Positions 2,048 to 49,574 of a stretch of 57,740 nt of DNA are shown piece by piece. The stretch's first letter is position 1. Each line of letters begins with the position of its first letter. The stretch is taken from contig JAAOMT010000198.1 of assembly GCA_016748015.1 (NCBI GenBank), forward strand, positions 542,519 through 600,258, in the 5' to 3' direction. A program made the translations under genes and the position numbers. A model generated the notes under the pieces. That model searched no databases. It was not told the origin of the DNA and worked only from the letters and a program-made list of their open reading frames with translations. This DNA is from Geosiphon pyriformis. Its lineage: Eukaryota; Glomeromycota; Glomeromycetes; Archaeosporales; Geosiphonaceae.

Positions 2048-4497
2048 TTTTTTTTTGTTTTTTTTTTGTTAACGTGTAGCCACACCAGTTGTTTATTAGT
2101 TATTCCACAGTAATGTGGTGGTTTCATAAAGCCAGTTCACCCAATAATACATATTACAAGATGCAGCTAACCACAAGCGGAAAGCCCTAACTACATGCTA
2201 GTACTACCTTTGCTACCTAATGTATTAAACATATCTAATTTATACATCTTACTCATAATGCATACAAGTTCATAACTACTCTTAACAAGACTGCTCATCC
2301 ACTTAGCAGTCTGATCTGGATCAGACTTGATATCAGAGGATTGAACCTCCTATAACTCCATCATCACATCAAATGTATCATCATAGACCAAAAAATTTTT
2401 AGCATCACCATCATCATTATCATCATCATCATCATTATCATCCATGTCTTTATCATCAGATATGTTATAGTGTACCTTCCCACCCCTCAACTTGAGGGCT
2501 CCCACTTCCTTTTGCAGCACAGAAGCCACAGCATGAATGGCTTTAATTTGGTTTCCCAATCCAATCACACTTTCCTTCATTGTCTCTGCCATAACTGGTG
2601 GAGTAGACAATAACATAGTAACCAATGCAACCAAAGAACCCACAGGCTCAACAATAGATTTGATCAACAAAGACAGTTCACTAAGTTGGGTTTCTAGAGA
2701 AGCCAACCTAACATTAACAGCAACATCTGAACCAGAGGAGACAACCAGCAACAGCAGCACCACAACTTTGGGGAAGGTACTGAAAGCCAGACCCGTATCA
2801 GCAGCAGCAGCAACAGGAGGAACCACAGAAGTGGTGGCTTTGGCATAGGATTTAGCTCCAATGAGGGATGACTTGAAAATGATGGGACCACCAGCAGAAT
2901 TAGAAGAGAGTTTGGGAGGGAGAGATGACAACACCTTACAGCCCACAGCCAAATGATCTAAACTTTGACATCTATAGCAGTGATGACATTCAGGAGTTTC
3001 CCACCAGATGCGGCAGCCATGTAAGGTACTGGTTTTTGAAACAGCAGCATTCAAAGATTCCAAAGAGCCAAAGGTCACTACTGCAAAGCATTGACGTTGA
3101 TAGGAATCAGAGGAGCGGGAAATAAAACACGTACAGCCACCAACTTGGGAGACCAGATCATTTATCTCAAATACAGTGCAGTCAAATGGAAGATTAACCA
3201 GCTTAGCTTTGAAAGCATCTCTTGAAGAGATAACCTCCTTTTGGTTGGCAATGGGAAGAATCCTAATACTATCTTTTCTGACCAACACAGACCAGTTAGA
3301 GAGAGCAGCAGCAGCAGAAAAAATGTCCTTAAAGTTAACCACAGCATATTGCCATAAGCCAGCAGGCTTCAACTTAACAGAAGTGACAACACCAAAAATG
3401 CCAAGAGCAGATTTGATGTCATCAGAAGAGGCACCCAAGAGTACAACACACAGTGCAACTGACAAAGAAAAGGAAGAAATAGAGGCCACTCCTGAAGACT
3501 GTGCAATCTTAAGAGTGGTCAAAAAAACCTCATCACCAATGGCCACCTTGGTAGCACCATTTAGACACTCCTGAGATGCAAATTCTACACAGAACAACTT
3601 GACAGCATCTCATGAAACTGATTTAAGCCCAATACAACCAGACAGCAATTGAAACAAAGAACTGAGCAAAGCCATCTTGATCTTAAACATAGCACCAGGT
3701 ACAAGATTGGAGGCCACCCAACCAGAGAACCTTTGACATCCATTCACATTTACCCAAGCATCAGCATCAGATGCACCAGAAACTGGGGGGGAACAGTTGA
3801 TTCCATTTCCATCTGATCAGCCCAATCTTTGAGATTATCTGGATTGATGGACTGTTTTGCTACTGGGATTGGCAATGATCTGCTGGAGAGTACCACATCA
3901 GGCAACACAGCCAGTGGTTGATCTTGGCCCATCTTGGGAGATGTGCTGCTGCTGTTGCCATCCATATTAGGAAGAGGGCTTGCTGCTGCTGTGGAGATCT
4001 TACCAAAAATCTCATCTGGAATCACAAAGGGGTTCAGTGTAACTATAGCAGTTGTGACTGCTTGCTGCTGTTTTTTGGGATTTTTGGCTTTTGCAGCCAT
4101 TTGTGAAGTAGTAGTAGTAGAAGTAGTAGTGGGAGTGGTGAAAGCAGGAAAGACCAACTTGTTGACTGGTCTGTTATTAAAAATCTTTGGGCTCTTTGAA
4201 GTGGTAGAAACAACACTAGGACTAACCTGAGTGTGCCTTTTTGAAGGGACTTTGACTGGAGAAGAACTTCCAGCCAAAAGAGAAGAAAATGAACCAGAAG
4301 CCACTAAAGGCAGCTTATTACTATTATTTTTTAAAGGAAATGTTGCCAGAACGTTTTGTCTAGCTGCTTCAATAACAGAGAGACCCTCTCACATTGAAAC
4401 TTTATTAGTTACTATAGGAAAAGTAACGTTTGCAACTTTTTTACTCTTAGCTCTATTTGTGGTCATGAAATTTAAAAGAGAAAGAGTTTTTTTTTAG
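2048..4497 (-). mobile_element. ORF1-only LINE L1a, apparently complete (about 2.45 kb)
   Basis: Inserted in the gypsy A1 integrase with a roughly 10-bp duplication. On the minus strand it begins near CTCTTTCTCTTTT, the same 5' boundary as L1b at 8583. It then carries an ORF1-type gene, about 300 bp of 3' untranslated sequence, and ends in an A-rich tail (T-rich at 2048-2069 on +). The same 3' boundary recurs in L1c at 9583. No endonuclease or reverse transcriptase sequence is present, so the element looks non-autonomous. The A-tail and target duplication fit target-primed reverse transcription by a LINE machinery. Confidence 0.88.
2350..4466 (-). pseudogene. LINE ORF1-type nucleic-acid-binding protein (L1a)
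   Basis: ATG at 4466 (MTTNRAKSKKV), with a low-complexity Ser/Thr/Pro N-terminal region. The second half holds two RRM-like segments (around VALCVVLLGASSDDIKSALG and AVVTFGSLESLNAAV) and a CCHC zinc knuckle C-x2-C-x4-H-x4-C (CYRCQSLDHLAVGC, near 2950). A coiled-coil-like tail (RLASLETQLSELSLLIKS) and an acidic Asp/Glu run close to the stop end the protein. This is the usual layout of the RNA-binding ORF1 protein of fungal LINEs. One stop follows in KVSM*, the frame changes near 3750-3800, and a TGA lies near 3615. The frame change and the last stop are shared with L1b. LINE-type retrotransposition is inferred from the architecture. Confidence 0.8.
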
Positions 4498-4507
4498 ATA
4501 TCATTTG
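4498..4507. repeat. Target site duplication of L1a, right copy
   Basis: ATATCATTTG, matching 2038-2047 with one difference. The integrase frame continues directly after it (CHHGC, then LSDKGRAF). Confidence 0.8.
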
Positions 4508-5200
4508 TCACCATGGCTGCTCCAAAGAACTTTTATCTGATAAAGGAAGAGCTTTTCTTAGTATACTGGTTGAAGAACTTTGTAGAAAAATGGGAATATG
4601 TCACAAACTTTCCTTCCCTTATCACTCCCAAACAAATGGCCTAGTGGAACATTTCAATAGAACACTGTGTAAAACCTTAGCCAAAACAAGTGAAGAAACA
4701 AACTTATGGGACAAAGTACTGCCTTCAGCTTTGTTTGCTTATAGAACTGTGAATCATGACATAACAAGTTATGAACCTTTTTATCTGCTCTATAGATGCA
4801 TGGCAACACTACCAATAGAAATTGACATTGAAACAATACCTTTTGAAGAGATCACAATAGCAAATTACAAAGACATTTTGCAAAGAAGACTGGGTACCAT
4901 TCTTGACTCATTGGTAGAAGCATGAATAGTTGCTTTTGAAAAGATAAAACAGTTTCAAGAAAAGCTTAAAAAGAAGAAAACCTATAAAACACTTTCTTTA
5001 AGTATTGGTAACTTGGTATTAGAATACTGTTCAGACAGAGACAATGTTTATGGTGATAAATTCTCTAGCCAGTGAAAAGGACTCTTTATAGTCAACAAAG
5101 TTTTGAACAATGGTTCTTATATTCTTTAAGATCAATCTGGAACAATCTTTAATGATCATCCTGTTCATGACACATGACTTAAGAAATATTACAAACAATC
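4508..5200 (+). pseudogene. gypsy A1 integrase, C-terminal part
   Basis: Continuation of the DDE integrase core: second Asp in the SDKGRAF stretch and the Glu-containing HSQTNGLVEHFNRT motif at about 4625-4660, followed by LPSALFAYRTVNHDITSYEPF. After a stop at 4923-4925 the C-terminal domain is still readable (GLFIVNKVLNNGSYIL), similar to the GPY/F-type tail of gypsy integrases. The last part overlaps, in another frame, the region leading into the third ORF. Confidence 0.88.
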
Positions 5201-5299
5201 TGATTGGTTACCTGTTGTGGTAATACCAACTCAAATGATCAGCAAAAATCAGATATTAATAAATGCACCACTCCCAAAACAGAGGTATCTTTAATCAAC

Positions 5300-5956
5300 A
5301 TGAACAATTATTTTCTGGATCAAAACATTCAAAACACTTTCTATACTCTTTATGAGTATTGGATTAAAAACTATCCAAATGCTACTCTGACCATTGGAAA
5401 ACAAACTACAATAACTGACAACAGTAGAACACATACTGTTATTAAACCAAAGAAAACAACTACCAGAAGAGAAAGAATTGATAGCAAAATGGATAAGTAT
5501 TTGCTAAAAAGTATAACAGCAGCAATACTTGCACTTTCCATCACAATTGGAAAAACAATTAAAGAAATCTTGCCCATAGACAAAAACTTGTCATATGGAA
5601 GACAACTAGAACTCTATGGTCACCTTGGTAAAATCATAGAAGACATGAAGCTCATGAAGAAAACAACTTCTGAGATACAAGTGGAAATTTTGGACATTGT
5701 ACAATTAGATGTCCCAAGAGTTTTGACCATTGCAAGAAGAGCCAAAACTTTTATACAAAGATTTGGTCTCTTGGACACAAAGCTCATTTCATCTCAAGTT
5801 TTATATACCTTATCCACAAAAGACTTCAACAAACTAGTTAGTTTTGAGTTAGATAAAACCCTTCAAATAGAGTATCTTCTAAATAGTTTGATTTCGCCAG
5901 AGCTCAATCTCTTTGAAGAAGATAATGTTACAGTTGAGACCTATACTTCTTATTAA
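5300..5956 (+). CDS. gypsy A third ORF downstream of integrase, unknown function (A1)
   Basis: Open reading frame of 218 codons counted from the ATG in INMNNYFLDQ. The frame is open another 32 codons upstream, so a frameshift or internal entry from pol is possible. It has no recognisable enzyme motif, signal peptide or membrane segment. It shows YPNATLTIGKQTTI, a basic KKTTTRRER patch, then an alpha-helix-like half (MDKYLLKSIT, LGKIIEDMKLMKK, RRAKTFIQRFGLLD). A2 encodes the same protein (13305-13961), also uninterrupted, while most other frames of these elements are broken. A diverged counterpart lies in the same place in gypsy B (41046-41550). The stop falls 31 bp inside the 3' LTR. I do not recognise the family. 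Confidence 0.7.
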   Translation: MNNYFLDQNIQNTFYTLYEYWIKNYPNATLTIGKQTTITDNSRTHTVIKPKKTTTRRERIDSKMDKYLLKSITAAILALSITIGKTIKEILPIDKNLSYGRQLELYGHLGKIIEDMKLMKKTTSEIQVEILDIVQLDVPRVLTIARRAKTFIQRFGLLDTKLISSQVLYTLSTKDFNKLVSFELDKTLQIEYLLNSLISPELNLFEEDNVTVETYTSY

Positions 5957-6567
5957 TTATCACATGTATTAGCCACTGATGTCATATGATTAGCCATACT
6001 ATTTTTAGAAAGTGATCATTGACCTGATCATTGACCACTTTTGATAGTTATATAAGTGATGAATCTTTTAGCTGTAGAAAAGCATGTAATAACAAGCATC
6101 TGAATAATCAAAAATAAATAAAATAACAACTTTCATCTCAATCCTTCTTTTATCACTAATTTCCCTTTCCCTACCTTCAAGTATCTAAACATTTTAAAGA
6201 TAAAAGATTATTTGTTGGCCTTTTCCTATTTGAATAATTGTAGTATTTGAAGACTATTTGTATAAATGTGACTGAAGAGCACAAGTTGATACTTGATATT
6301 GAATTCTAAAAGCACCAATGTAAAGGCATAGAATTAATACCAGCAGTGATCAATTGTTGACAGTATGGACTATCTTTCTACCTTCAGATTCTCTAGTTAT
6401 CTTTAAAAAGTATAGCAACTGAGATATTTTATGAGACTGATCTTGTACATTAAATCTATATTCATTCAATTCGCTCTTTAAAGTTGAAATTCTTTTTGAT
6501 TATTTCCATCACCTTACAATTCTGTTCTCTCTTGCTATCTGTTAGCTTGTTACTCCAACTCATAACA
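5926..6567 (+). repeat. 3' LTR of gypsy A1
   Basis: Starts TGTTACAG at 5926 and ends near TCATAACA at 6567. It is about 642 bp and homologous in inverted orientation to the LTRs of A2 (12693-13335 and 19669-20321). The intact termini of the family read TGTTACAG...CTGTAACA, an 8-bp perfect inverted repeat. A purine-rich GAAGAAGATAA lies just upstream as a candidate polypurine tract. The sequence immediately beyond is LINE L1b. Confidence 0.85.
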
Positions 6568-12692: not shown

Positions 12693-13335
12693 TGTTACAG
12701 GTTGGAGTAACAAGCTAATGGATAGCAAGAGAGAACAGGATTGTAGGGTGATGGAAATAATCAAAGAAAATTCAATTTTAAAGAGCAAATTGAATAAGTA
12801 TGGATTCAATGTGTGAGATCAGTCTCATAAAATATCTTAGGTGCTATACTTTTTAAAGATAACTGGGGAATCTGAAGGTAGAGGGATAGTCTATACTGTC
12901 AACAATTGATTACTGCTAGTATTAATTCTATGTCTTCACATCAGCACTCTTAGAATTCAATATTAGGTATTAATTTGTGCTTTTCAGTCACATTTATACA
13001 AATAGTCTTCAAATACTATAATTATTCAAACAGGAAAAGGCCAACAAGTAATCTTTTATCCTAAGATGTTTGGATACTTGAAGGTAGAAAAAAGAAAATT
13101 AGCAATAAGAGAGTGATTAAGATGAAAGTTGTTATTTTTATTTATTTGATTCTTGTCTGAGAGATGATTTTTTACAGCTAAGAGACTTATCACTTATATA
13201 GCTATTAAAAGTAGTCAATGACCAGGTTAACAACTAGGTCAATAATCACTATCTAAAAATAGAGTGGCTAATTATATGACATTAGTGACTAATACATGTG
13301 ATAACTAATAAAAATTATGGGTTTCAACCATAACA
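12693..13335 (-). repeat. 3' LTR of gypsy A2
   Basis: About 643 bp, starting TGTTACAG on the + strand and ending near CCATAACA. Collinear with 19669-20321 and with the A1 LTR (inverted). The end of the third ORF overlaps its inner edge. Confidence 0.85.
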
Positions 13336-13961
13336 TCATCCTTTCTAAAGAGATTGAGCTCTGGTGAAATCAAGCTATTTATAGGGTATTCTAATTGAAG
13401 AGTTTTGTTTAACTCAAAACTAACTAGTTTGTTGAAGTCTTTTGTGGATAGAATATATAGTACTTGAGGCAAAATAAGCTTTGTATCCAAGAGACCAAAT
13501 CTTTGTATAAGAGTTTTGGCTCTTCTTGTAATGGTCAAAACTCTTGGGACATTTAAACATATAATGCCCAAAATTTCCACTTGTATCTCTGAAGTTGTTT
13601 TCTTCATGAGCTTCATTTCTTCTATGATTTCACCAAGACGACCATAGAGTTTTAATTGCCTTCTATATGACAAGTTTTTGTCTATGGGCAAGATTTCCTT
13701 AATCATTTTTCCAATTGTCATGGAAGATGTAAGTATTGCTGCTGTTATGCTTTCTAACAAATACTTATCCATTTTGCTACCAATTTTTTCTCTTCTGGTA
13801 GTGGTTTTCTTTGGTTTAATAACAGTATGTGTTCCACTGTTATTAGTTATGGTGGTTTGTTTTCCAATGATCAGAGTAGCATTTGGATAATTTTTGATCC
13901 AGTACTCATAGAGAGTGTAGAAAGCATTTTGAATGTTTTGATCTAGGAAATAATTGTTCAT
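13305..13961 (-). CDS. gypsy A third ORF downstream of integrase, unknown function (A2)
   Basis: Open for 218 codons from the ATG in INMNNYFLDQNIQ. It is nearly the same protein as in A1 (5300-5956), with NYPNATLIIGKQTTI, a Thr/Arg/Lys-rich stretch, MDKYLLESITAAI and RRAKTLIQRFGLLDTKLI. No indel separates the two copies and neither has an internal stop, in contrast to gag-pol. No membrane segment or known motif is visible, so it does not look like an envelope protein. The frame is open another 32 codons upstream into the pol end. Function unknown; conservation suggests a real element protein. Confidence 0.7.
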   Translation of the reverse strand: MNNYFLDQNIQNAFYTLYEYWIKNYPNATLIIGKQTTITNNSGTHTVIKPKKTTTRREKIGSKMDKYLLESITAAILTSSMTIGKMIKEILPIDKNLSYRRQLKLYGRLGEIIEEMKLMKKTTSEIQVEILGIICLNVPRVLTITRRAKTLIQRFGLLDTKLILPQVLYILSTKDFNKLVSFELNKTLQLEYPINSLISPELNLFRKDDVMVETHNFY

Positions 13962-14049
13962 GTTGATTGAAGATACCTCTGTTTTGGAAATGGTGCATTT
14001 ATTTATATCTGATTTTTGTTGATCATTTGGGTTGGTATTACCACAACAG

Positions 14050-15140
14050 GTAACCAATCAGGTCGTTTGTGATATTTCTTGAGTTGTGTGTCATAAACAG
14101 GACGATTATTAAAGATTGTTCCATATTGATCTTGTAAGATATAAGAACCATTGTTCAAAACTTTGTTGACTATAAAGGGTCCTTTCCACCGGCTAGAAAA
14201 TTTATTACCATAGACATTGTCTCTGTCTGAATGGTATTCTAAAACTAAGTTACCAACACTTAAGGAAAGTGTTTTATATGTTTTTTTTTTCTTAAGCTTC
14301 TCTTAAAATTGTTTTATCTTTTTAAAGGCAATTATCTATGCTTCTACTAATGAGTCAAGAATGGTACCAAGTCTTCTTTGCAAAATGTCTTTGTAATTTC
14401 CTATTGTTATTTGTTCAAAAGGTATTGTCTTAATGTTAGTTTCTATTGGTAGGGTTGCCATTTGTTCATAGAGTAGATAAAAGGGTTCATAACTTGTTAT
14501 GTCATGATTTACAGTTCTATAGGCAAACAAGACTGAAGGCAGTACTTTGTCCCATAAGTTTGTTTCTTTGCTGGTTTTGGCTAAGGTTTCACATAGTGTT
14601 CTATTGAAACGTTCTACTAGGCCATTTGTTTAGAAGTGATAAGAAGAGGAAAGTTTGTGACATATTTCCATTTTTCTGCAAAGTTCTTCAACAAGTATAC
14701 TGAGAAAAGCTCTTCCTTTATTAAATAAAAGTTCTTTGGGGCAGCCATGATGACAAATGATATTTTCATAAATGAAATTGGCTATTGAGACTGCTGTTTG
14801 GTCTGGAGTGGCTCTTGCTTCTACTCACTTTGTAAGATAGTCGGTAGCTGTGATAATATATCTGTTGCCATCAGGAGTTATTGTTAAAGGTCCAACAACA
14901 TCTATACCAATTCTGTCAAAGGGTTAACCAACAGAGATTGGATGAATATCTTCTTTGCAATTGGGTTTTCTTCTTTTTTGGCAGATATCACAGGTTTTGA
15001 TGTATTCAGCAATGTTTTTTCCCAAGGTAGGCCAATAATAGCAAGCTAGAGTTTTCTGAATTGTTTTTGTTTTTCTAAAGTGTCCAGCTAATAGATCATG
15101 TGCATATTGTAGATCACAATTTCTCTTTCTTCAAATCTGA
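14050..15140 (-). pseudogene. gypsy A2 integrase
   Basis: Minus-strand integrase without the L1a insertion. Read from right to left it has the HHCC zinc domain (near 15120-14980), first core Asp (IGIDVVGPL region, about 14905), second Asp (about 14735), the NGLVEHFNRT-like Glu motif (about 14605-14630), FAYRTVNHDITSYEPF (about 14480-14530) and a GPY/F-like tail (about 14165). A stop replaces a codon near 14630, among others. It gives the reference for the L1a target site: ATATCATTTG occurs once, at about 14757-14766. Confidence 0.88.
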
Positions 15141-15384: not shown

Positions 15385-16936
15385 ACAAGATGGTAAGTCT
15401 GGAGAAAGCGTCGGCATTTTGATGATTACCTCTTTTGCAATATTGAATATTATAGTCAAATTCATTCAAGTGGAGTATCTAGTGAGTTATCTGTTTGTGT
15501 TCTAGCCTTTTTTTGTTGTACAGCCAAACCAAAGCTTGGTGATCTGTTACCACCAAAAACTTCACACCAAGAAGATACTTACTCCAGTAATTGGTGGACC
15601 ATACTACTGCTAAGCATTCTTGTTCAGTGACTGAATAGTTTTGTTCTGCTGGGGAAAGGGTTCTACTGGCATAGACTATGGCATATTTTTTGTCATTTTC
15701 ATCTTTCTGGGAGAGAACAGCACCAAGTCCAAAGCCAGATGTATCAGTGTGGAAGATAAAGGGTCGATCTAGATCAGATTGCTTGAGGCTGAGTTCTGTA
15801 ACCAGTTTTTCCTTTAAAGTTTCAAAGGCTTTTTGCTAATGTGTTCTCCAATGGTAATTGACATTTTTCCTGAGTAGCTGATTGAGAAGAGAGGCAATTT
15901 TGGAGAAATTCTTGACAAATTTGCGATAATAAGAGGCCAAACCAAGAAAAGAGCGTAGTTCATGAATGTTCATTGGTTGTTTGATGTTTTGGACTTTTTC
16001 AACTTTGGCTGGATCAGGAAAGATTTCATCTTTTGTGATAAGATGACCAAGGAACTGGGTGGATTGTCTTCCAAAAAAAGATTTGATTGGGTTGATCTTG
16101 AGGCCAGCATTTCTGAGGAGGTCAAAAACCTTTTGCAAATGTTCCAGGTGTTCATTTCAGGTTTTTGAGTATACTATTATGTCGTCCAAATAGACTAGAA
16201 CAAAGTTTTTCTTGACTGATTTAAATACTTTATCCATTAAGCATTGAAAGATGGGAGGGGCATTGGTGAGACCAAAAGGCATGACTGTGAATTCATAAGT
16301 GCTATACTTGGTGATAAAAGTGGTTTTCTTCCAGCTTTCTGGATTCATCTCTACTTGCCAGAATCCAGCAGTTAGATCAATGGTTGAAAAGAAAACAGCA
16401 TCTTTGAATTGGTCCAGCATTGCATCAATCTTGAGAAGTGAGTACATGTCTCTTTCAGTAATTGCATTTAATTGGTGGTAGTTGACACAGAAGTGTAGTG
16501 TTCCACCTTTTTTGGATACCACTATAACTGGAAAAGCCCATTTACTCTTGGTTTCTTGTATGAATCCAAGTTCTTTCATCCAGTTTATTTCTTTCTTAAT
16601 AAACTCATCATTGTGCCAATTGGATTAATATGGCTTCAAATGGATGGGGCAAGTTTCTCTGGTGGTAATAGTGTGTTGTATCACATAAATACATCCAGGT
16701 GTATCACCTTCTTTTAAGATAACTGGGCTATTTCTAGCCAACAGATTTTTAATATCCACTTTTCTTTTTTCAGGAGAAGGTTCTTTTTGTTCTATAACTA
16801 TTAATTGGATTTCAGATGATTTACTCTTAAAGGACTTCTGTACTTTTTTTAGTTCTTCTCTGGGTATCAAACTAATTGGCTCCCAATTTTTGTAATAGAT
16901 TAGACAAAACTTGCATTCATTACTAGGAGAATACAA
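15385..16936 (-). pseudogene. gypsy A2 reverse transcriptase and RNase H
   Basis: RT: KKGGTLHFCVNY, FSTIDLTAGFWQVEM, MPFGLTNAPPIFQCL and an intact YLDD followed by IIVYSKT (about 16160-16190). RNase H: FGLGAVLSQ, YASRTL, VTDHQAL and ADAFSRL near its end at 15395. Short stops and frame changes occur near 16155 and 15840. The N-terminal linker (ISLIPREELKK) marks where L1b cut copy A3. The catalytic centre is intact. Confidence 0.9.
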
Positions 16937-17300
16937 AGGTTTATTGCACCAGCACCTGGCACAAAGATCATGCTACCAATAACTGTATTTTGCTTTCTTG
17001 CCAGGTTTTCTATTAAAGATTCTTTTGAGAATATTATAGTAGGGCCAGCAGATCAGCTTGCCATTTACCATAATTCCTTTTTTGTCAGCTTTAACATTGT
17101 CTAATGATTTGTCATTGCTGATGAAGATAGTATCGGCAAATTCAACAGTTTTTTTTTGTTCTTCTTGATCTTTTTCTTCATTACTCTCATCATCATCTGA
17201 TTCATCTGATTGTTTTTCTTCTTGGTTTTGCTTGGATATTAAAAAAGTTGTCCAATGGCAACATTTAACCACAATGGGTTTTTCACTACATCTGATGATT
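16937..17300 (-). pseudogene. gypsy A2 acidic and cysteine-rich linker between PR and RT
   Basis: On the minus strand an acidic run (SDESDDDESNEEKDQEEQ, about 17160-17215) is followed by a C-x2-C ... C-x2-C arrangement around the stop near 16973 (CARCWCNKP then NECKFCLIYY, about 16900-16965). Four spaced cysteines suggest a zinc-binding module, which is an inference. Gypsy B has a longer Cys-rich stretch in the same position, but no dUTPase motif is visible here. Confidence 0.55.
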
Positions 17301-39950: not shown

Positions 39951-40088
39951 TGGAAGTTTGCTATATACAATATTAGAAACATCAATGTTTCTGCAAAACA
40001 AAGAGACATTGTTTGTTGACATAAAGATTCAGATAACTTGGTTTCTATTGTTACTGAAACAAAATTGAGGTTAAATATTAGACTGTGG
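39951..40088 (+). pseudogene. LINE L3 ORF2, N-terminal endonuclease start
   Basis: WKFAIYNIRNINVSAKQRD and IVTETKLRLN correspond to the first strands of an APE-type endonuclease, including the metal-binding Glu in TETK. The frame is interrupted after RLW by the LTR of gypsy B. One TGA replaces a codon after DIVC. A start codon is not evident upstream. Confidence 0.8.
40085..40088. repeat. Target duplication of gypsy B, left copy
   Basis: GTGG here versus GCGG at 49575-49578. Four bases is the only spacing that restores the LINE frame. Confidence 0.65.
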
Positions 40089-40491
40089 TGTTACCAGAGG
40101 TTTTTGGTCTCTTTTCTTAAATGTTGTTGATGCCTGTTTGTTGTGAATTCACGTTTTCTGGATGTGGTTGAACCTCCAATAACTGAATTTATCTTCAAAT
40201 TATCTTCTATAATTTGAACTGCTGGGCTTATAAGTGGAATGGCCAATTTCTTGCCAGTTACTTTATGTAGTTACATTGTAGTAAATGTCAACTCTTTCCC
40301 AGGAATTGCTCATCTAGAAGCTCACTAAAATGTATAGTTACTTTGCTGTGAAAGTCAACTCTTCTACAGGAATCTTGTCTGTAGACTACCCTAATGATTG
40401 TAATAAGAAAAGAAAAGAAAAATAAAAGAAATGTAAAAGAAATAGAATTTTGTTAAGAGAAACGTTTTCTATCCAGGCCTGGAGTTACTAA
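40089..40491 (-). repeat. 3' LTR of gypsy B, visible part
   Basis: Collinear with 48604-49006. The remainder falls into the assembly gap. Confidence 0.92.
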
Positions 40492-41045
40492 NNNNNNNNN
40501 NNNNNNNNNNNNNNNNNNNNNNNNNNNNNNNNNNNNNNNNNNNNNNNNNNNNNNNNNNNNNNNNNNNNNNNNNNNNNNNNNNNNNNNNNNNNNNNNNNNN
40601 NNNNNNNNNNNNNNNNNNNNNNNNNNNNNNNNNNNNNNNNNNNNNNNNNNNNNNNNNNNNNNNNNNNNNNNNNNNNNNNNNNNNNNNNNNNNNNNNNNNN
40701 NNNNNNNNNNNNNNNNNNNNNNNNNNNNNNNNNNNNNNNNNNNNNNNNNNNNNNNNNNNNNNNNNNNNNNNNNNNNNNNNNNNNNNNNNNNNNNNNNNNN
40801 NNNNNNNNNNNNNNNNNNNNNNNNNNNNNNNNNNNNNNNNNNNNNNNNNNNNNNNNNNNNNNNNNNNNNNNNNNNNNNNNNNNNNNNNNNNNNNNNNNNN
40901 NNNNNNNNNNNNNNNNNNNNNNNNNNNNNNNNNNNNNNNNNNNNNNNNNNNNNNNNNNNNNNNNNNNNNNNNNNNNNNNNNNNNNNNNNNNNNNNNNNNN
41001 NNNNNNNNNNNNNNNNNNNNNNNNNNNNNNNNNNNNNNNNNNNNN
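40492..41045. other. Assembly gap (N run, 554 bp)
   Basis: Unknown bases covering the inner part of the 3' LTR, the candidate polypurine tract and the end of the third ORF. If both LTRs are 971 bp, the real gap must be longer than its nominal length. Confidence 0.98.
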
Positions 41046-41692: not shown

Positions 41693-43078
41693 TTAAGTGT
41701 TCAAGTTTGGTTGTTGTTCTATTATAATTATTGGTTCTAAATTTCGAGAAATATCTTCAGGATTAATTAAAAGAGAATGTGTACCAATTTGTGGAATTAA
41801 TGGTTCAGAATTGTTTCTGGAATGATAGTGTTTTAATCTGTCTCCATGTGCAACTTTTGCTAATATTTTGTCATCAAGTCTTAACTTATATGATCCATTG
41901 CCTAGAATTTCGTAAATATAAAATGGTCCATCCCATTTGTTTTCAAATTTCCCACTCCATTGTTTTTCAGCCTTAGTTCTGTGTAAGAGAACTTTATTTT
42001 CAACTTTAAATTCATTAGTAATAGGTGGTAATTTGTTGTCATGTCTTTCTTTTTGTTGAGCTTGGGAATGTTTAATATGAGTTGCTGTTATTCTTTTTTT
42101 TTCTTCCAGTGTACTAAAAAGAGTGTAGGCTCTTTTTTGGAGTGTTTCTTGAAAGTTTTCTTTATTGATTGGTTGTACTGGGTATGTTTCCACTGTGAAA
42201 TTAATTGGTAATGTTGCTGTCCTTCTATAAGTAAGATCAAATAGTGTATGTTTTATAATATCTTGTTTTAGTGTTCTGTATGCTAGTAACACTGATGGAA
42301 TAAAGATATCCCATTCCTGCTCAAAGTCTGTTGAGACTTTGGCTAGAGATTCACACAATGTTCTGTTGAAATGTTCTACAAGTCCATTTGTTTGAGAGTG
42401 ATAAGATGATAATAGAGGTTTTTTGATATTGAACTATTTACAAATTTCTTGTATCAAGTTGTTCACAAAATGTGTTCCTTGATCAGATAAGAGTTCAATT
42501 GGGCATTCATATCTACAGATAATGTCTTCATAGATGAAATTTGCTACTGATTTTGCATCTGCTCTTTGGATGACTCTAGCTTTAGACCATTTGGTAAGAT
42601 AATCCACTACAACTGCAATATAACAATTTCCTTGGGTTGTGATAGGTAATGGTCCAACTAAATCAATTCCAACTTTGTCAAAAAGTTGTCCAACTTTGAT
42701 TAGATTTAAAGGTTCTGTGGGGCAAGTTCCTTCTCTTTTTTAACAATTATCACAAGATTCTACATATTGTCGAATGTCTTTTTGCATGTGAGGCCAAAAA
42801 TAATGTTCAAGAATTCTTTGAATTGTTCACTCTTTTCCCAAGTGTGCTGAAAACGGATCTGTGTCCATGTTGTATAAAATTGTTTCTTTTTCATTCTCTT
42901 GTACTAATCTGAGTAGCTGGTTTGGTTTTCTGTGATTTTTATAATAAATTTTGTTCTGGTGTATGAAATATTGTTTTGATTGGTGTTGTAAGCAGTGTTT
43001 TTTACTTGGAGACCAGTTTTCTGGCATGGTAAGAGTCTCCAAATAATTTTTAAGATTGCTGTAGTTTCTGGGATCCAT
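41693..43078 (-). pseudogene. gypsy B integrase
   Basis: HHCC domain (near 42720-42860), then core Asp in VGIDLVGPL (about 42665), second Asp in LSDQGTHFVN (about 42480) and Glu in HSQTNGLVEHFNRT (about 42360-42400). These are followed by VLLAYRTLKQDI and a GPY/F-like tail (WDGPFYIYEILGNGSYKL, about 41890-41940). A TAA replaces one Cys-neighbour codon of the zinc domain and a TAG lies near 42434. The C-terminal 221 codons are fully open. It would insert the element cDNA. Confidence 0.9.
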
Positions 43079-43241: not shown

Positions 43242-44510
43242 CTATTTGGCACTTTGTTCAGTTTTCTTTTTATTGAGCCATTTGAGACCAATGTTGTCTG
43301 TTATTATGTCAAATTTTTTTCCATTCTTCAGATATTGTTGAAAATGTTTAAGAGCCCAAATAACTGCAGCAGCTTCTAATTCAGTTGAGCCATATTTGAG
43401 TTTTGTTGGCTTGAGTGTTTTGCTGGCATAGGCAATAACTTGTTCTTGGCCATTTTCATCCAATTGTGATAAGATGGCACCAAATGCTATGTGTGAGGCA
43501 TCAGTGGCTAATTGGAATCATTTGTTGAAGTCTGGGTAAGCAAGAACTGGGGCTGTTGTCAATTTTGTTTTGAGAATTTCAAAAGCTTTTTGTTGTTCTT
43601 CAGTCCATTTGTATGGTACATTTTTGTTGATAAGATAATTGAGTGGTTTGGCAATTTCTGAGAATCTTTTTATGAATTTTTGATAATAAGAAGCTAATTC
43701 CACAAATCCTCTTAGTTCTGTAGTATTTCTGGAGGTTTGAAAGTTTTTGACAGCACTGATTGTTCCTGGATTTGGTTTGATTCCATTTTTACTAACTATG
43801 TATCCAAGAAAGATCAAGCTTGTTTTTCCAAAGTGATATTTCTCAATATTTAACTTTAATCCTGCTTTCCATAATTGTTGAAAAACTTCTCACAGGTAAA
43901 TAAAATAGGCTTCAAAGCTTGGTGAATATACATTAGTATCATTAAAATAAACAACTACTGATTGCCATAAAAGTCCTTCATAGACAACATCCATGAGTCA
44001 CTGAAATGTTGCTGGTACATTGCAGAGTCCAAAAGACATAACATTAAACTCATAATTTCCTCCTTGAGTGGTGAATACTGTTTTGGGTCTATCTTTTGGG
44101 TCCATTTCGACTTGCTAATATTCACTTTCCAGGTCTAAAGTTGAAAAGAACTTGGCTTTTCCTAGAGCATCTAGCATGTCATCAATTCTTGGAAGAGAGT
44201 AGGCATCTCCAATTGTAACACTATTCAGTTGTCTATAATCAACACAGAATCTGATTTTTCCATTTTTCTTTTTAACTAAAACTACTGATAAGGCCCAAGG
44301 ACTTCTTGATGGTTGAATCAATCCGTTATTGAGCATTCTTTGAACCTCTTCTTTGATGAATTGGTGGCTGGCAGGTGGCACTCGATAAGCTTGTTGACAT
44401 TTTAGTAGAGCATTTCCTGTATGGATCTGATGTTGAACAATGTCTGTTTTTCCCAAGTCATTGTTGTCTTTTGCAAATATATCTGCAAATTCAGCTATCA
44501 ATTGTTTCAA
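43242..44510 (-). pseudogene. gypsy B reverse transcriptase and RNase H
   Basis: RT segments: KKKNGKIRFCVDYRQLNSVT, YSLPRIDDMLDALG, FFSTLDLESEY, MSFGLCNVPATFQ. The catalytic motif reads YFND near 43945-43960 where Y-x-D-D is expected, so one metal-binding Asp appears replaced by Asn. The connection (ELRGFVELASYYQKFIKRF) and RNase H (VIAYASKTLKP, ELEAAAVIWALKHF, ITDNIGLKWL) follow. Stops near 44115, 43980-44000, 43890 and 43518 break it. Several of these and D-to-N fit G-to-A or C-to-T changes. Confidence 0.9.
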
Positions 44511-44735
44511 TTGTTTTTGTTGTTGAGATTCTAAGGGACCTATATTGATTCGAGAGAGTTTTTCTTTTAATAAGTGATAGTTTTCAGTAATAGGAATGAT
44601 ATTTGGATTTGGGAGTAAAATGTGCTTTACAATTTCAATGAAATTAGAGACAATTTGAGGGTTTTCATCTTGAAAGATATTGCTGTGTATGATTCCAATT
44701 TTGTGATGTTCTCCAAAAGGTGAAATGGTAATTGG

Positions 44736-45230
44736 CTAAAGAAGTTGAAGAATCTGGTAAGATTCATTTTGTGTATTAAAAACTATGTTTACTGGGACTG
44801 TAAATCGTCCAGTTGAACCAAAACCTTGAGTTCCTCTTTCACTTTTTCCCAATTGTTCTCTGTTGTTTACTGATTGTAAACCCGAAATGTTGATTAAGGG
44901 TAAGTAAATTGCTTGAGCAATTTTTTCAGCATGTTCAATTTTGAATGGTTTGTCTGTCTTATTCTGTAATATAATGGTAATGTCTCCAGTGTATTCTGCA
45001 TCTATAACTCCTCCTCTAATATTGATTTTTTTGCTTGCCAATGATGATCTGGAGACAATTTGAACCATTGCTCCTGGTAGAATTTCAAGAGCAATTTTGA
45101 GATTGATTTTTGTCAAAGACTTTGGTTGGAGAATCAAAGTATCTTTTCCTAGATATCTTAGGTCATATCCAGCATCAATTTCGTGTGCTTTTTCTGGTCT
45201 GATTTCTTGGCCATGGTTGTTAAAATATTT
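44736..45230 (-). CDS. dUTPase domain within gypsy B pol, between PR and RT
   Basis: Trimeric-type dUTPase (dUTP to dUMP and pyrophosphate). All five conserved motifs are present in order: DAGYDL (about 45160-45177), SRSSLASK with PGAMVQI before it (about 45030-45080), GVIDAEYTGDI with catalytic Asp and uracil-facing Tyr (about 44979-45011), EKIAQAI (about 44910-44930) and the C-terminal P-loop-like RGTQGFGSTG (44808-44837). It is open from about 45370 to 44737 and in the same frame as the RT downstream, so it is a pol domain and not a separate host gene. A TAG at 44736 separates it from RT in this copy. The likely role is to keep uracil out of element cDNA. Gypsy A lacks it. Confidence 0.9.
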   Translation of the reverse strand, partial: KYFNNHGQEIRPEKAHEIDAGYDLRYLGKDTLILQPKSLTKINLKIALEILPGAMVQIVSRSSLASKKINIRGGVIDAEYTGDITIILQNKTDKPFKIEHAEKIAQAIYLPLINISGLQSVNNREQLGKSERGTQGFGSTGRFTVPVNIVFNTQNESYQILQLL

Positions 45231-46090
45231 AAGTTGTAGAGGTGGTTGCTTTTCAAGAAGATAGATGGAAGTGATTGGTAGTTTTTCTACTAGTTCAAAT
45301 ACTCCAAATTCGATTTCATTTTCATCATTCTCATCTGGCAGAGGAATGCTAAGAGCATAACATTCTAAACATCATTGTTTATTACAAGACATAACACATT
45401 CTTCGCACAATTGAATGTTCATTTGCTCTAATTGTTGAATTTGAGCTTCTTTGGTCGGATATGTGTGGCTTGCAATTTGGTGGTAGATTTCTACTTCATC
45501 TTCATAATCAAATCCAGCTAATTCTATAGTATACTCAATAAATTCAGCTTTTTTTATTTGGTGGACATCTTCTTGGGTGGCTCCATTAATTAATGCCATT
45601 GCTAAGTCAAAAATCATTTCAGTATCATGAGGGTAGTGGTAAAGTTTATTGAGAGCACTGTTGTATGCTGCATCAAATGGTGTTTCTCTTCTGACTTTTT
45701 CCGAAATTGATAGAGCATATTGACAGGTTTGATCATGTCAATCCAATTGCATTTTTCTGGTAGCATTTCTTCACATGTAAGGCAAGGTGTGTTGTCCCAT
45801 TTTCCACTTCTTTTTGGAAATCCAAATCGTTCTTTATGGCATGCTTTGCAAAAGTAATAGATACGAGTTTCATATTCCTCTTCTGGAGAAATACATGCTC
45901 CCATTGATGAAAGTTTTTTGTTGTAATCTTTGTATTTGAGTGGAATATAGGATGGTTGTTTCCATGGTTCTGGTGTAGAATATCTAACTTTCTTCCATCT
46001 CCTTGATTCTTCAAAAATCTCTTGTTCGGTTTCTTCAGCCCAATTGGATGTTGATCCAAGAGCCATGTAGGTTTTAGTAAGTGGCATTTT
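45231..46090 (-). pseudogene. gypsy B cysteine-rich linker domain between PR and dUTPase
   Basis: Two cysteine clusters: FCKACHKERFG ... PCLTCEEMLPEKC (about 45740-45870) and LCEECVMSCNKQ*CLEC (about 45360-45410). Between them is a helical stretch (TPFDAAYNSALNKLYHYPHD, then MALINGATQEDVHQIKKAEF). The frame changes once near 45700, and a TGA stands where a Trp would fit between the last cysteines. C-x2-C pairs suggest zinc binding, which is an inference. Gypsy A has a smaller Cys cluster at the equivalent place. I do not recognise a named family. Confidence 0.65.
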
Positions 46091-46861
46091 TTTCTCCTTT
46101 TCAAATTCAAATACTGGAGCTTTTTCTGATCGTTTGTTAAAAGTACCACAGGTTGCAGGTACTATGGTATATTGTTTTTGGTATGAGATTTTAAGTTCTT
46201 GAGTTTCTCAGTTCAGGTTTGCATTGGCCTTGAGAAGCCAATCATTTCCAACTAGAGCTTGGTATTGGGGTGCATCCATAACAAGAACTTTAACTGGAAT
46301 GGTGATTCCATCAATTGAAAAAGGGAAATCATCAATTTTTCCTACTGGAGTCTTCTTCATACCATCAGCTGTGACAATAACTGTTTGAGCTGGTCTGTCT
46401 ATGTTTCATTTGAGTTGTTGTATCAGCTGGTAATTGATGATACTTCCAGCTGATCTACTATCTAAGATTAAGCAAATAGGTTTTCCTTCTACTGTAGCTT
46501 CTGTGTACATAGCAGTAATTACTTTCTGTTCATTAACTGCTGCATTACTAAGCAGAAATGGTGATTCATTTGCTTCAAATTCAAATGGAAATATATCTGA
46601 CCGATTAGCATTTTGGGCAATTTGAGTTGGTGAGATGGTGTGGTTGGAAGAGTTTGATCTTAGTGCTGTAACTTTATCTTCAGAAAGTGCAGTTTGTTGA
46701 AAATCTGATTCCTCTGGTATTGTAAGATAACTGGGTTGAGTGTGATAGTGATTGGGTCTTTGTTGACCCGAATTTTGGGAAACCAACTGGTTATTTGAAT
46801 TGATTCTGTTGTGGTTATTCTGCAATTGATTTTGGGGTGTAAATTGGTTATGTTGAACCAA
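46091..46861 (-). pseudogene. gypsy B aspartic protease and gag/pol junction
   Basis: Retropepsin-type: ICLILDSRSAGSIIN at about 46445-46490 has D-S-R where D-S/T-G is expected, one base from Gly, so activity is doubtful. YQALVGNDWLLKANANL at about 46225-46275 is the typical distal part. A stop (tgt-adjacent TGA near 46405) and one near 46207 interrupt it. The Asn/Gln-rich N-terminal part is the end of gag. Confidence 0.75.
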
Positions 46862-48558
46862 TCTTCTTGCTGATACTTGATATTGTTGAGTGAGTGGTGT
46901 CTGATATGGCTGAATTGGTAAAAGTTGCTAATATTGTTGCTGCATTGATTGTGGAGCTGGTGGATAGTAGTTTTGATTTTGTGGTCTTGGTGAATAATAG
47001 GTTAGTGGTGGAGATTGGTAATAGGATTGTTGTGGTGAAGAGTAATGTTGAGTACTCCTGTTTTGTTGGTCTCTTTGTAATTTCCTACAATCTTGTTTCC
47101 AGTGTTCTGGAATTCCACAATAATAACAATTTTTAGATTGGTTGTTGGATGGTAATCCAAAATTGTTTTGGTTGCATCATTGTGGTGATTGATATCTTTG
47201 TGGTTGTTGCTGCTGTTGTTGTTGGTTTGTAAAATAGCTTTCAACTTTCTTTGTAAGTTGGTCTATCTTTTCTTCAGCTGCTGAGCTGGTTTCTCCAATT
47301 GCAAAGTTTACAAGCTTGGTGTGATTTGCTTCTTTCATTGCCATTTCATAGCTCTTTGCATGTCTAATAGCAGTTGCTAAGTCTGCTGGAGCATATGAAC
47401 AGACTTTCTTAATCAGTTTGTCTTTTAATCCTGCTATAAATTGATCCAGAATTTGAGCATCAGAATAGTAGTTATTGGTTTCCAATTGTTGGATTTGTCT
47501 AAGAAGTTTGTTAAATCTTTCAAGATAAGTTATAACAGATTCAGATGTTTCTTGTTTGATATTGTGAAAGTGGTTTCTGAGAGTGATAGAGGTATTGTTG
47601 TTGGTGAATTGTTGTAAAAAAGCATCTTTGAATGCTTGCCAGTTTTCAAATAGTTTTTCTAAATTTTCAAACCATTCTTCTGCTGTTCCTTAGAGAAAGT
47701 AGGAAATTGCTTTGAGCATTCTTGCTGCAATCCAACCATTTGCATCTCCTGCTTTTTGAACCTTGTTAAGCCATTCTTGAGGACTGGTATTATTGTTTTT
47801 ACCAGTAAATTCTGGGATTTTTGCAATATAAGCAGTTGTCATTTCTTCTTTGTTTTCTGTAATTTCTTCTGGTTCTGATTCAGTTTCTTCACTTTTCAAG
47901 CTTTCTGAGTAATTACTTTCGTTTTCTTGTAAGTAATCAATGATATTGGCACCTGTTGATATTGGTTCCTGCTGTTGAGTAGGATTTCTAGGTGACTGAA
48001 AATCTTCTGGTCTGGAGAAACGGCTAAGTGGTAAACTTGGTGTTTGTGGTTGAACAAATGAAATTGGAAATGGTGTAATAAAAAGTGGTAATTTGACACT
48101 GGTTTCTTGTTCTGGTGTTTGCAAGTGTTTGGCAGTTGTCTTTTGTAGTGTTGGAGTGTTTGGAGTGGTTCTTGAGTATTGCTTCAATCTTTGTTTGCCT
48201 TTGTTGCTTGTTTTTGTCTCTGATTCAAAGTCAAAGTGTATTTAGACTGTACTGGATATTTTTCTTCACAATACTCAATAATGTTAAAATTAATTTTTTG
48301 GAAGTAGGTAGCAAGTGTTTCACTGTTCAAGTCTTCTGTTCCCAATTGTGAATAGTGTACTAAATTATTGTAGAGGTTGTTTCTAACTTCTGAAATGTTG
48401 TAGTTTCCAAAAAAATAATTGTTGATGCGGTTTTCAATGTATTGGTATACTGATTTCTTTACAACTTCAATTCCGTCTGGAATGTTGAATCTTTGCTTGC
48501 AGTGGGTGTAAATTGACTGATAATACTCTAGAGTTGCTGTGTCTGGTGTGGTCACCAC
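46862..48558 (-). pseudogene. gypsy B gag
   Basis: Starts near MVTTPDTATLEYYQSIYTHC (48558), with a helical N-terminal domain, a Pro/Ser/Thr-rich and acidic linker (47840-48130), and a capsid-like region with FTGKNNNTSPQEWLNKVQ and DAQILDQFIAGLKDKLIKKV. A coiled-coil-like end and a CCHC zinc knuckle (CYYCGIPEHWKQDC, about 47090-47130) follow. A Gln/Asn-rich tail leads into PR. Several stops and frame changes (48184, 47690, 47177) break it. It would form the particle and bind RNA. Confidence 0.8.
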
Positions 48559-48585: not shown

Positions 48586-48601
48586 CCGTGGGAGAGCACC
48601 A
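48586..48601 (-). promoter_or_regulatory. Candidate primer binding site of gypsy B
   Basis: Minus-strand TGGTGCTCTCCCACGG begins two bases after the 5' LTR end (48604). It shares TGGTGCTC with gypsy A. Confidence 0.65.
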
Positions 48602-48603
48602 AA

Positions 48604-49574
48604 TGTTACCAGAGGTTTTTGGTTTCTTTTCTTAAATGTTGTTGATGCCTGTTTGTTGTGAATTCACGTTTTCTGGATGTGGTTGAACCTCCAATAACTG
48701 AATTTATTTTCAAATTATCTCCTATAATTTGAATTGCTGGGCTTATAAGTGGAATGGCCAATTCCTTGCCAGTTACTTTATGTAGTTACATTGTAGTAAA
48801 TGTCAACTCTTTCCCAGGAATTGCTCATCTGGAAGCTCACTAAAATGTATAGTTACTTTGCTGTGAAAGTCAACTCTTCTACAGGAATCTTGTCTGTAGA
48901 CTACCCTAATGATTGTAATAAGAAAAGAAAAGAAAAATAAAAGAAATGTAAAAGAAATAGAATTTTGTTAAGAGAAACGTTTTCTATCCAGGTCTGGAGT
49001 CACTAACAGTTTACTGAAATTGGTAGCTAATCAATTTCAAAACGTTAGTTGGGTTTTGAAGATTTTCCAAGTGCAATAATTTAAAGAATTTGGTTTTTCG
49101 AATTATTTAATATTTATTTTTTTTTGTGTGTGTAGGAATGGTTCTAAGTAATAAATCTAAAGTAAGATACATTTTCCAGAAGAGAAAAGCTTTTCTTTTA
49201 TACAACTTGTTGTAGTACTAGTCTATGAACTTGTACTTTTTCTCTTTGCTCAAATTTTGGTGAACTAAAGATACATTTTGATGAACTACAAGTTATTTCG
49301 CTGAACTATTGATTAATTTGGATAAACTATTCATAATTTCGGCAAATTTCTGTAAATTTCGGCAAATTTTTGAATGTTACAAAGTTCAGGGTATTGTGTA
49401 ATTTGATCATCCTACTTTTTGTTATACTAATTAGATTATTTTAATTGAATCGTAATATGTGATAATTGATTAAATAATAAATGATAATTTGAAATGATAT
49501 TAATATACTAATGAATTATAGGAATTATAAAGATAATTTCATGCTAATTAATAACTAAAATTCTACTGGTAACA
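48604..49574 (-). repeat. 5' LTR of gypsy B, complete (971 bp)
   Basis: From TGTTACC to GGTAACA. Its first 403 bp match 40089-40491 with eight transitions. Confidence 0.93.

Follow-up and report, generated by a model that had tools for sequence, protein, structure and literature searches.

The window analysed here, a stretch of 57,740 nucleotides of Geosiphon pyriformis DNA, encodes a dUTPase domain within the pol frame of a Ty3/gypsy element, in the order protease (PR), dUTPase, reverse transcriptase (RT). The copy in the window is a broken member of its element family. It belongs to a many-copy, selected dUTPase-bearing Ty3/gypsy lineage with an extra conserved cysteine-rich domain.

The dUTPase domain and its element

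The five motifs named in the original prediction are present in their canonical order, and they lie on the minus strand, starting at 45176 (DAGYD), 45050 (RSSLA), 45011 (GVIDAEY), 44924 (KIAQ) and 44837 (RGTQGFGS); the plus strand across the region is full of stops. We take five motifs in this order to be the mark of the trimeric dUTPase superfamily. The Pfam profile PF00692, proposed beforehand as a check, scores 82.4 bits against a cut-off of 22 (E 3.1e-23) on residues 59–188 of the frame, and NCBIfam TIGR00576 (dut) reaches 102.4 bits, 0.15 bit below its cut-off of 102.55. Since the RT frame (44115–44735) is the next stop-to-stop frame and has the same phase as that of the dUTPase, the two lie in one frame, separated by one in-frame stop. 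The position foreseen for the domain, in the RT frame and between PR and RT of a fungal Ty3/gypsy element, is thus upheld by ORF phase and tblastn.

The modelled core of the domain matches the chain 8k6w_C with a Foldseek E-value of 4.4e-8, a target TM-score of 0.77 and an rmsd of 1.9 over 115 columns. The best Foldseek match in the PDB (E 1.7e-8) has an rmsd of 12.0 over 148 columns, which a stray tail probably explains; the mean pLDDT of the model is 64.7, both tails are poor, and motif V is inside a low-confidence tail. Taken together, the E-value, the fold match and the other copies described below rule out a chance match. The lentiviral pol chain 1f7d also matches the window dUTPase (E 2.4e-13), no closer than cellular dUTPases do. 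In the protein P0001, the stretch between dUTPase and RT (residues ~640–760, ..IFIANTTEESVYIPENTIIGYLGTE..) has no Pfam match at E<=0.01.

Pfam and tblastn searches on its pieces give the element the order gag, PR, cysteine-rich region, dUTPase, RT, RNase H and integrase (Table 1). Its LTRs are identical at 395 of 403 aligned bases (98%; 8 differences). Two bases inward from the 5′ LTR, at 48586–48601 on the minus strand, is the likely tRNA primer-binding site TGGTGCTCTCCC / TGGTGCTCTCCCACGG. The flanks of this one copy (40080–40088 and 49009–49016) differ and show no matching target-site duplication despite the 98% identity of the LTRs; elements may have recombined with one another. Among the window RT pieces, PF17919 scores above and PF00078 below the cut-off; in the relative P0173, the RT–RNase H has a Ty3 chain as its best match (E 6.6e-105). 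Neither of the two C-terminal window ORFs that were scanned matches a chromodomain at E<=0.1, and some of the 3′ interior is unreadable.

The damage to the window copy consists of stops in RT, a frame change in the cysteine-rich region and an altered PR motif. No Pfam match above cut-off was obtained for PR in this copy, and its active-site motif is DSRS instead of the DSGS of P0001, so that the PR of the window copy is probably inactive. Elsewhere in the window, two inverted copies of 1548 bases (4489–6036 and 13225–14772) are 88% alike, and the inverted pairs I2 and I4 join pieces of a second Ty3/gypsy element, Gypsy A, near 0–1.5 kb and 15–17 kb.

Table 1. Features of the dUTPase-bearing element, of the Gypsy A comparison element and of host exons; plain coordinates refer to the window
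Feature	Coordinates	Strand	Basis or remark
5′ LTR	48604..49008	-	TG...CA ends; CA end read on 5′ LTR only
gag piece	47177..47689	-	Pfam PF03732, 56.4 bits
Aspartic protease (PR)	46181..46552	-	tblastn of P0001 PR, 61% identity over 124 aa
Cysteine-rich domain	45360..45919	-	tblastn of P0001 region, two pieces; between PR and dUTPase; frame changes inside
Stop-to-stop frame holding the dUTPase	44736..45371	-	211 aa
dUTPase domain, motifs I–V complete	44808..45197	-	PF00692, motifs, fold match
RT and start of RNase H	43476..44321	-	tblastn, 62% identity over 282 aa; in-frame stops in window copy
RNase H	43242..43517	-	PF17917, 102.4 bits
Integrase core	42434..42739	-	PF00665, 36.5 bits
Integrase C-terminal part	41693..42433	-	weak SH3_Tf2-1-like match, below cut-off
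3′ LTR	40089..40493	-	last two bases inferred from 5′ LTR
Gypsy A comparison element, RT	15719..16561	-	tblastn; PR match ends at 17294; no dUTPase upstream
UNG-like exons	G000:C271:277695-278345		60.0, 51.7 and 40.0 bits, each below whole-protein cut-off
dCTP-deaminase-type exon	L117:886-1107 (G000:C277:302385-302579)		TIGR02274 and PF22769 on 73 aa

Before the dUTPase there is a domain of about 220 residues with CxxC pairs, for which neither a Pfam family at E<=0.01 nor a confident fold was found. In the two subfamilies of copies introduced below as G1 and G2, mean agreement with the query is 94% for its cysteines in each, and 89% (G1) and 81% (G2) for the other positions. The CxxC pairs make it likely that this domain binds zinc. 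The relative P0131 shares the region (47% identity across 97% of the query), and in P0171, P0173, P0184 and P0185 a short linker takes its place.

Copies, selection and ancestry

The dUTPase is not a one-off in the Geosiphon genome. All 150 places scored with PF00692, out of 3181 first-look candidates, were above the cut-off, and a DNA search gave 40 scored places out of 1251 candidates, all at 94–100% identity, the window copy included. As a sample independent of the trait, the 30 loci that ranked best on RT alone were picked, including that of the query itself, and 30 of 30 have upstream matches to both the dUTPase and the cysteine-rich domain, the latter of 49–150 aa as limited by the flank. 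Excluding the query's own locus, the dUTPase is in one piece and free of stops in 16 of 29 and the RT in 26 of 29. The cysteine-rich region is also found in all 37 loci from the dUTPase searches (L001–L034 and L036–L038; two repeat others). One locus, L081, holds PR, cysteine-rich domain, dUTPase, RT and RNase H in a single unbroken frame of 1307 aa made of real letters; open frames of 2242 and 2504 aa were dropped, as they cross unreadable stretches.

Gypsy A lacks the domain, as had been predicted. Only one of its window copies shows both PR and RT, and there neither a dUTPase nor a cysteine-rich domain was matched; their spacing is 733 bases, against 1860 in the dUTPase element. The other two Gypsy A RT matches in the window are uninformative, with no PR upstream and one of them at the window edge. 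Of five further Gypsy A loci that were fetched, all have a PR match (5/5) and none has a dUTPase or cysteine-rich domain (0/5 each). Gypsy A is abundant (all 150 scored RT places at 80–100% identity) and, since it is so without a dUTPase, the domain is not needed for success in Geosiphon. The RT data reject neither a gain of the domain relative to Gypsy A nor a loss (AU p 0.373 and 0.427).

The test of selection across copies suggested by the original prediction gives an answer that depends on divergence. Among 40 near-identical copies (window 44736–45371 with L040–L078), pooled pN/pS for the dUTPase is 0.88 over 780 pairs, almost neutral, as expected for dead copies; 23 of the 40 are free of stops and gaps, and the other 17 are interrupted by a stop or a single-base gap. 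Singletons comprise 52 nonsynonymous, 17 synonymous and 1 stop variant, for which the neutral expectation from the singleton spectrum is 49.9 : 18.0 : 5.1, and shared variants comprise 106, 30 and 5. At this short range selection is invisible. Five stop-codon variants are each common to at least two of the 40 copies; stop-bearing copies may have been duplicated, or sites may have been hit repeatedly.

Constraint appears among diverged copies. Subfamily G2 comprises 20 places, the window copy and others that were all found via their dUTPase, which favours intact ones; its pooled pN/pS is 0.23 for dUTPase, 0.23 for RT, 0.22 for PR and 0.24 for the cysteine-rich domain (20, 18, 20 and 20 copies). 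For G2 pairs with pS of 0.35–0.6 the ratios are 0.19, 0.22, 0.20 and 0.21, respectively; binning by pS inflates low bins and deflates high ones and leaves pooled values unaffected. Subfamily G1 comprises 40 places, of which 38, 32, 16 and 17 copies were long enough for dUTPase, RT, PR and cysteine-rich domain, and pooled values there are 0.49, 0.36, 0.51 and 0.41. The difference between 0.49 and 0.36 means that the dUTPase is less constrained than RT in G1. In the RT-selected G1 copies alone, a choice that favours intact RT, the values are 0.50 for dUTPase (bootstrap 0.46–0.55) and 0.35 for RT (0.33–0.39). All of these ratios are pairwise counts on related copies, so the pairs are not independent. 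The dUTPase is thus shown to be under selection, as strong as that on RT in G2 and weaker than that on RT in G1. Across 67 loci, seven places being counted twice, the mean frequency of the major residue is 0.890 in the five catalytic motifs vs 0.793 in the rest of the domain.

The dUTPase tree has 30 rows, built from host, cellular and retroelement enzymes; phage (852 records, all below 60% identity), lentiviral and poxviral dUTPases were left out. Of the comparison originally proposed, with host, viral and other retroelement enzymes, it therefore covers the host and retroelement parts, and in these the elements stand apart from the host enzyme DUT1. The 21 element dUTPases other than that of P0182 form one clade (100/100). 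Within it, G1 and G2 fall together with P0131 (89/85), next to a clade of short-linker elements (96/93). In the RT tree, G1, G2 and P0131 likewise form a group (83/87) and the short-linker group is weak (45/75); the main groups agree between the two trees. P0131, P0171, P0173 and P0183–P0187 have dUTPase and RT in one protein, and PR too except in P0187. P0182 and P0205 are on long branches and are left uninterpreted; P0205 (988 aa) has a Ty1/copia-type RT (PF07727) followed by a dUTPase placed near the cellular ones.

The host's own DUT1 (L039), which is split by introns, groups with eukaryotic cellular enzymes (99/94). Identity to DUT1 is 30–34% for the G1 and G2 dUTPases and 61–71% for the five further cellular dUTPases of eukaryotes that were compared. 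Recent capture of DUT1 was rejected: holding G1 and G2 together with DUT1 gives an AU p of 4.3e-6, in a test that also separated these three from the other elements, so that the separation alone may cost likelihood. Rejection is weaker when DUT1 is held with all 21 element rows (p 0.013) or with 22 rows including P0182 (p 0.0035). The ancestry of the element dUTPase is shown to be separate from that of DUT1.

Possible function and the host background

We think it probable that the pol-encoded dUTPase works by hydrolysing dUTP beside RT, keeping uracil out of the element cDNA. Reverse transcription in a cell that contains dUTP would place U opposite A, and uracil-DNA glycosylase (UNG) and repair would then break the uracil-containing cDNA. 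A dUTPase released from RT's own polyprotein would lower dUTP where synthesis happens, provided that it is cut out, packed in the particle and enzymatically active; the benefit would be cDNA spared from the host glycosylase. A lowering of dUTP at the site of cDNA synthesis has been argued for retroviruses (PMC2427051).

The benefit had initially been tied to hosts that mutate repeats through C-to-T changes, and this part finds no support. According to the same source, dUTPase keeps dUTP from being incorporated across from A, an event that is not in itself mutagenic (PMC2427051), and the enzyme has no action on cytosine deamination. In the 40 close copies, decay is rich in such changes (C>T or G>A in 42 of 73 singletons) without a CpA preference, and a link to RIP was rejected: C>T occurred at 12/62 CpA, 11/35 CpT, 2/27 CpC and 0/4 CpG sites, and G>A at 5/37 TpG, 7/45 ApG, 5/21 GpG and 0/4 CpG sites.

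Besides DUT1, the host genome has UNG-like exons and a dCTP-deaminase-type exon (Table 1). The 73-residue translation of the latter scores 62.4 bits with TIGR02274, below the whole-protein cut-off, vs 16.2 bits with dut, and 65.1 bits with PF22769, above its cut-off; many places in the genome list for TIGR02274 coincide with PF00692 element dUTPases, and the place on C277 alone was followed. The genome therefore probably encodes both a source of dUTP and an enzyme acting against uracil-DNA. Homologues of Dcd1 are reported in the Glomeromycetes Diversispora, Gigaspora, Paraglomus and Rhizophagus (PMC10733785).

Other explanations for the presence of the domain have to be weighed against hydrolysis of dUTP beside RT. 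That the domain is retained not as a catalyst but for structure or binding (folding of the polyprotein, assembly of the particle, contact with RT or RNA) seems to us unlikely. Selection on the domain is silent on which function is selected, and bovine immunodeficiency virus is described as requiring a dUTPase-related gene for replication while its activity is undetectable (PMC4261571); yet the window dUTPase is full length, and its catalytic motifs are all complete and more conserved than the rest. The near-neutral ratio of the 40 closest copies and their 17 damaged members would suit a neutral passenger, or a one-off capture in a decaying element, but the domain's presence in every RT-selected locus, its pooled ratios in G2 and G1 and its occurrence in the relatives make this very improbable. 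That two dUTPases exist in the same genome might suggest descent from DUT1, an origin that the low identity and the three AU tests leave next to impossible.

It is tempting to connect the domain with the host enzymes, in that a dCTP deaminase would make dUTP and UNG would attack uracil-containing cDNA, a host programme that the element dUTPase would counter. The deaminase-type and UNG-like exons and the Dcd1 homologues of other Glomeromycetes speak for such a programme, but Gypsy A is abundant without a dUTPase, the deaminase may serve dTTP synthesis alone and the host has DUT1 too, so we give it little credence; that the host deaminase drives the need for an element dUTPase is a guess. Just as speculative, and in our opinion doubtful, is an extension in which the cysteine-rich domain and the dUTPase would form one cassette against this uracil-based barrier, the deaminase feeding dUTP, UNG destroying uracil-containing cDNA and the cysteine-rich domain docking the dUTPase onto the RT complex.

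Comparison with known systems

As in the Geosiphon element, the dUTPase of non-primate lentiviruses is inside the retroelement polyprotein (pol), and its place there is between RT and integrase. Retroviral dUTPase positions vary (PMC2427051, PMC5408684). The domain had been called rare in LTR retrotransposons, which overstates the case, as it has been published in fungi (PMC2864245) and in bdelloid rotifers (PMC5408684). Fungal Ty3/gypsy elements with a dUTPase between PR and RT are already on record (Novikova 2010; PMC2864245), so the kind is known, and it is the cysteine-rich partner that makes the Geosiphon family a variant. A dUTPase is described in the basidiomycete elements PosPlaTy3-3, -4 and -5 of Postia placenta and in Phanerochaete elements, and PosPlaTy3-5 has it in the same place as in Geosiphon (PMC2864245). 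Those elements contain a chromodomain and carry the dUTPase at three places, probably from several sources according to the authors, whereas in Geosiphon its place is the same in every examined locus, with the cysteine-rich domain before it. Another fungal LTR element with a dUTPase, according to the same report (PMC2864245), is Tmt1 of the truffle Tuber melanosporum, and enrichment of the dUTPase Pfam family is reported for Entomophthora muscae (PMC10515909). The literature searched, with subscription papers mostly outside it, yielded no report of dUTPase-bearing elements in Geosiphon or other Glomeromycota.

Whole lineages of bdelloid LTR elements, Juno, Vesta and TelKA, have a dUTPase placed between PR and RT, and Mag lacks one in the same genome (PMC5408684), as Gypsy A does in Geosiphon. 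Their hosts are animals, and in Juno the dUTPase is followed by an additional zinc knuckle (PMC5408684), whereas the cysteine-rich region of Geosiphon comes before it. The copy numbers in Geosiphon permitted selection on the dUTPase to be measured, a subject on which the accessible text of the fungal report (PMC2864245) is silent. With two abundant Ty3/gypsy lineages in one genome, one with a dUTPase and one without, together with DUT1 and the UNG-like and dCTP-deaminase-type exons, the need of an element for its own dUTPase, and against what, becomes testable by comparison within a single fungus.
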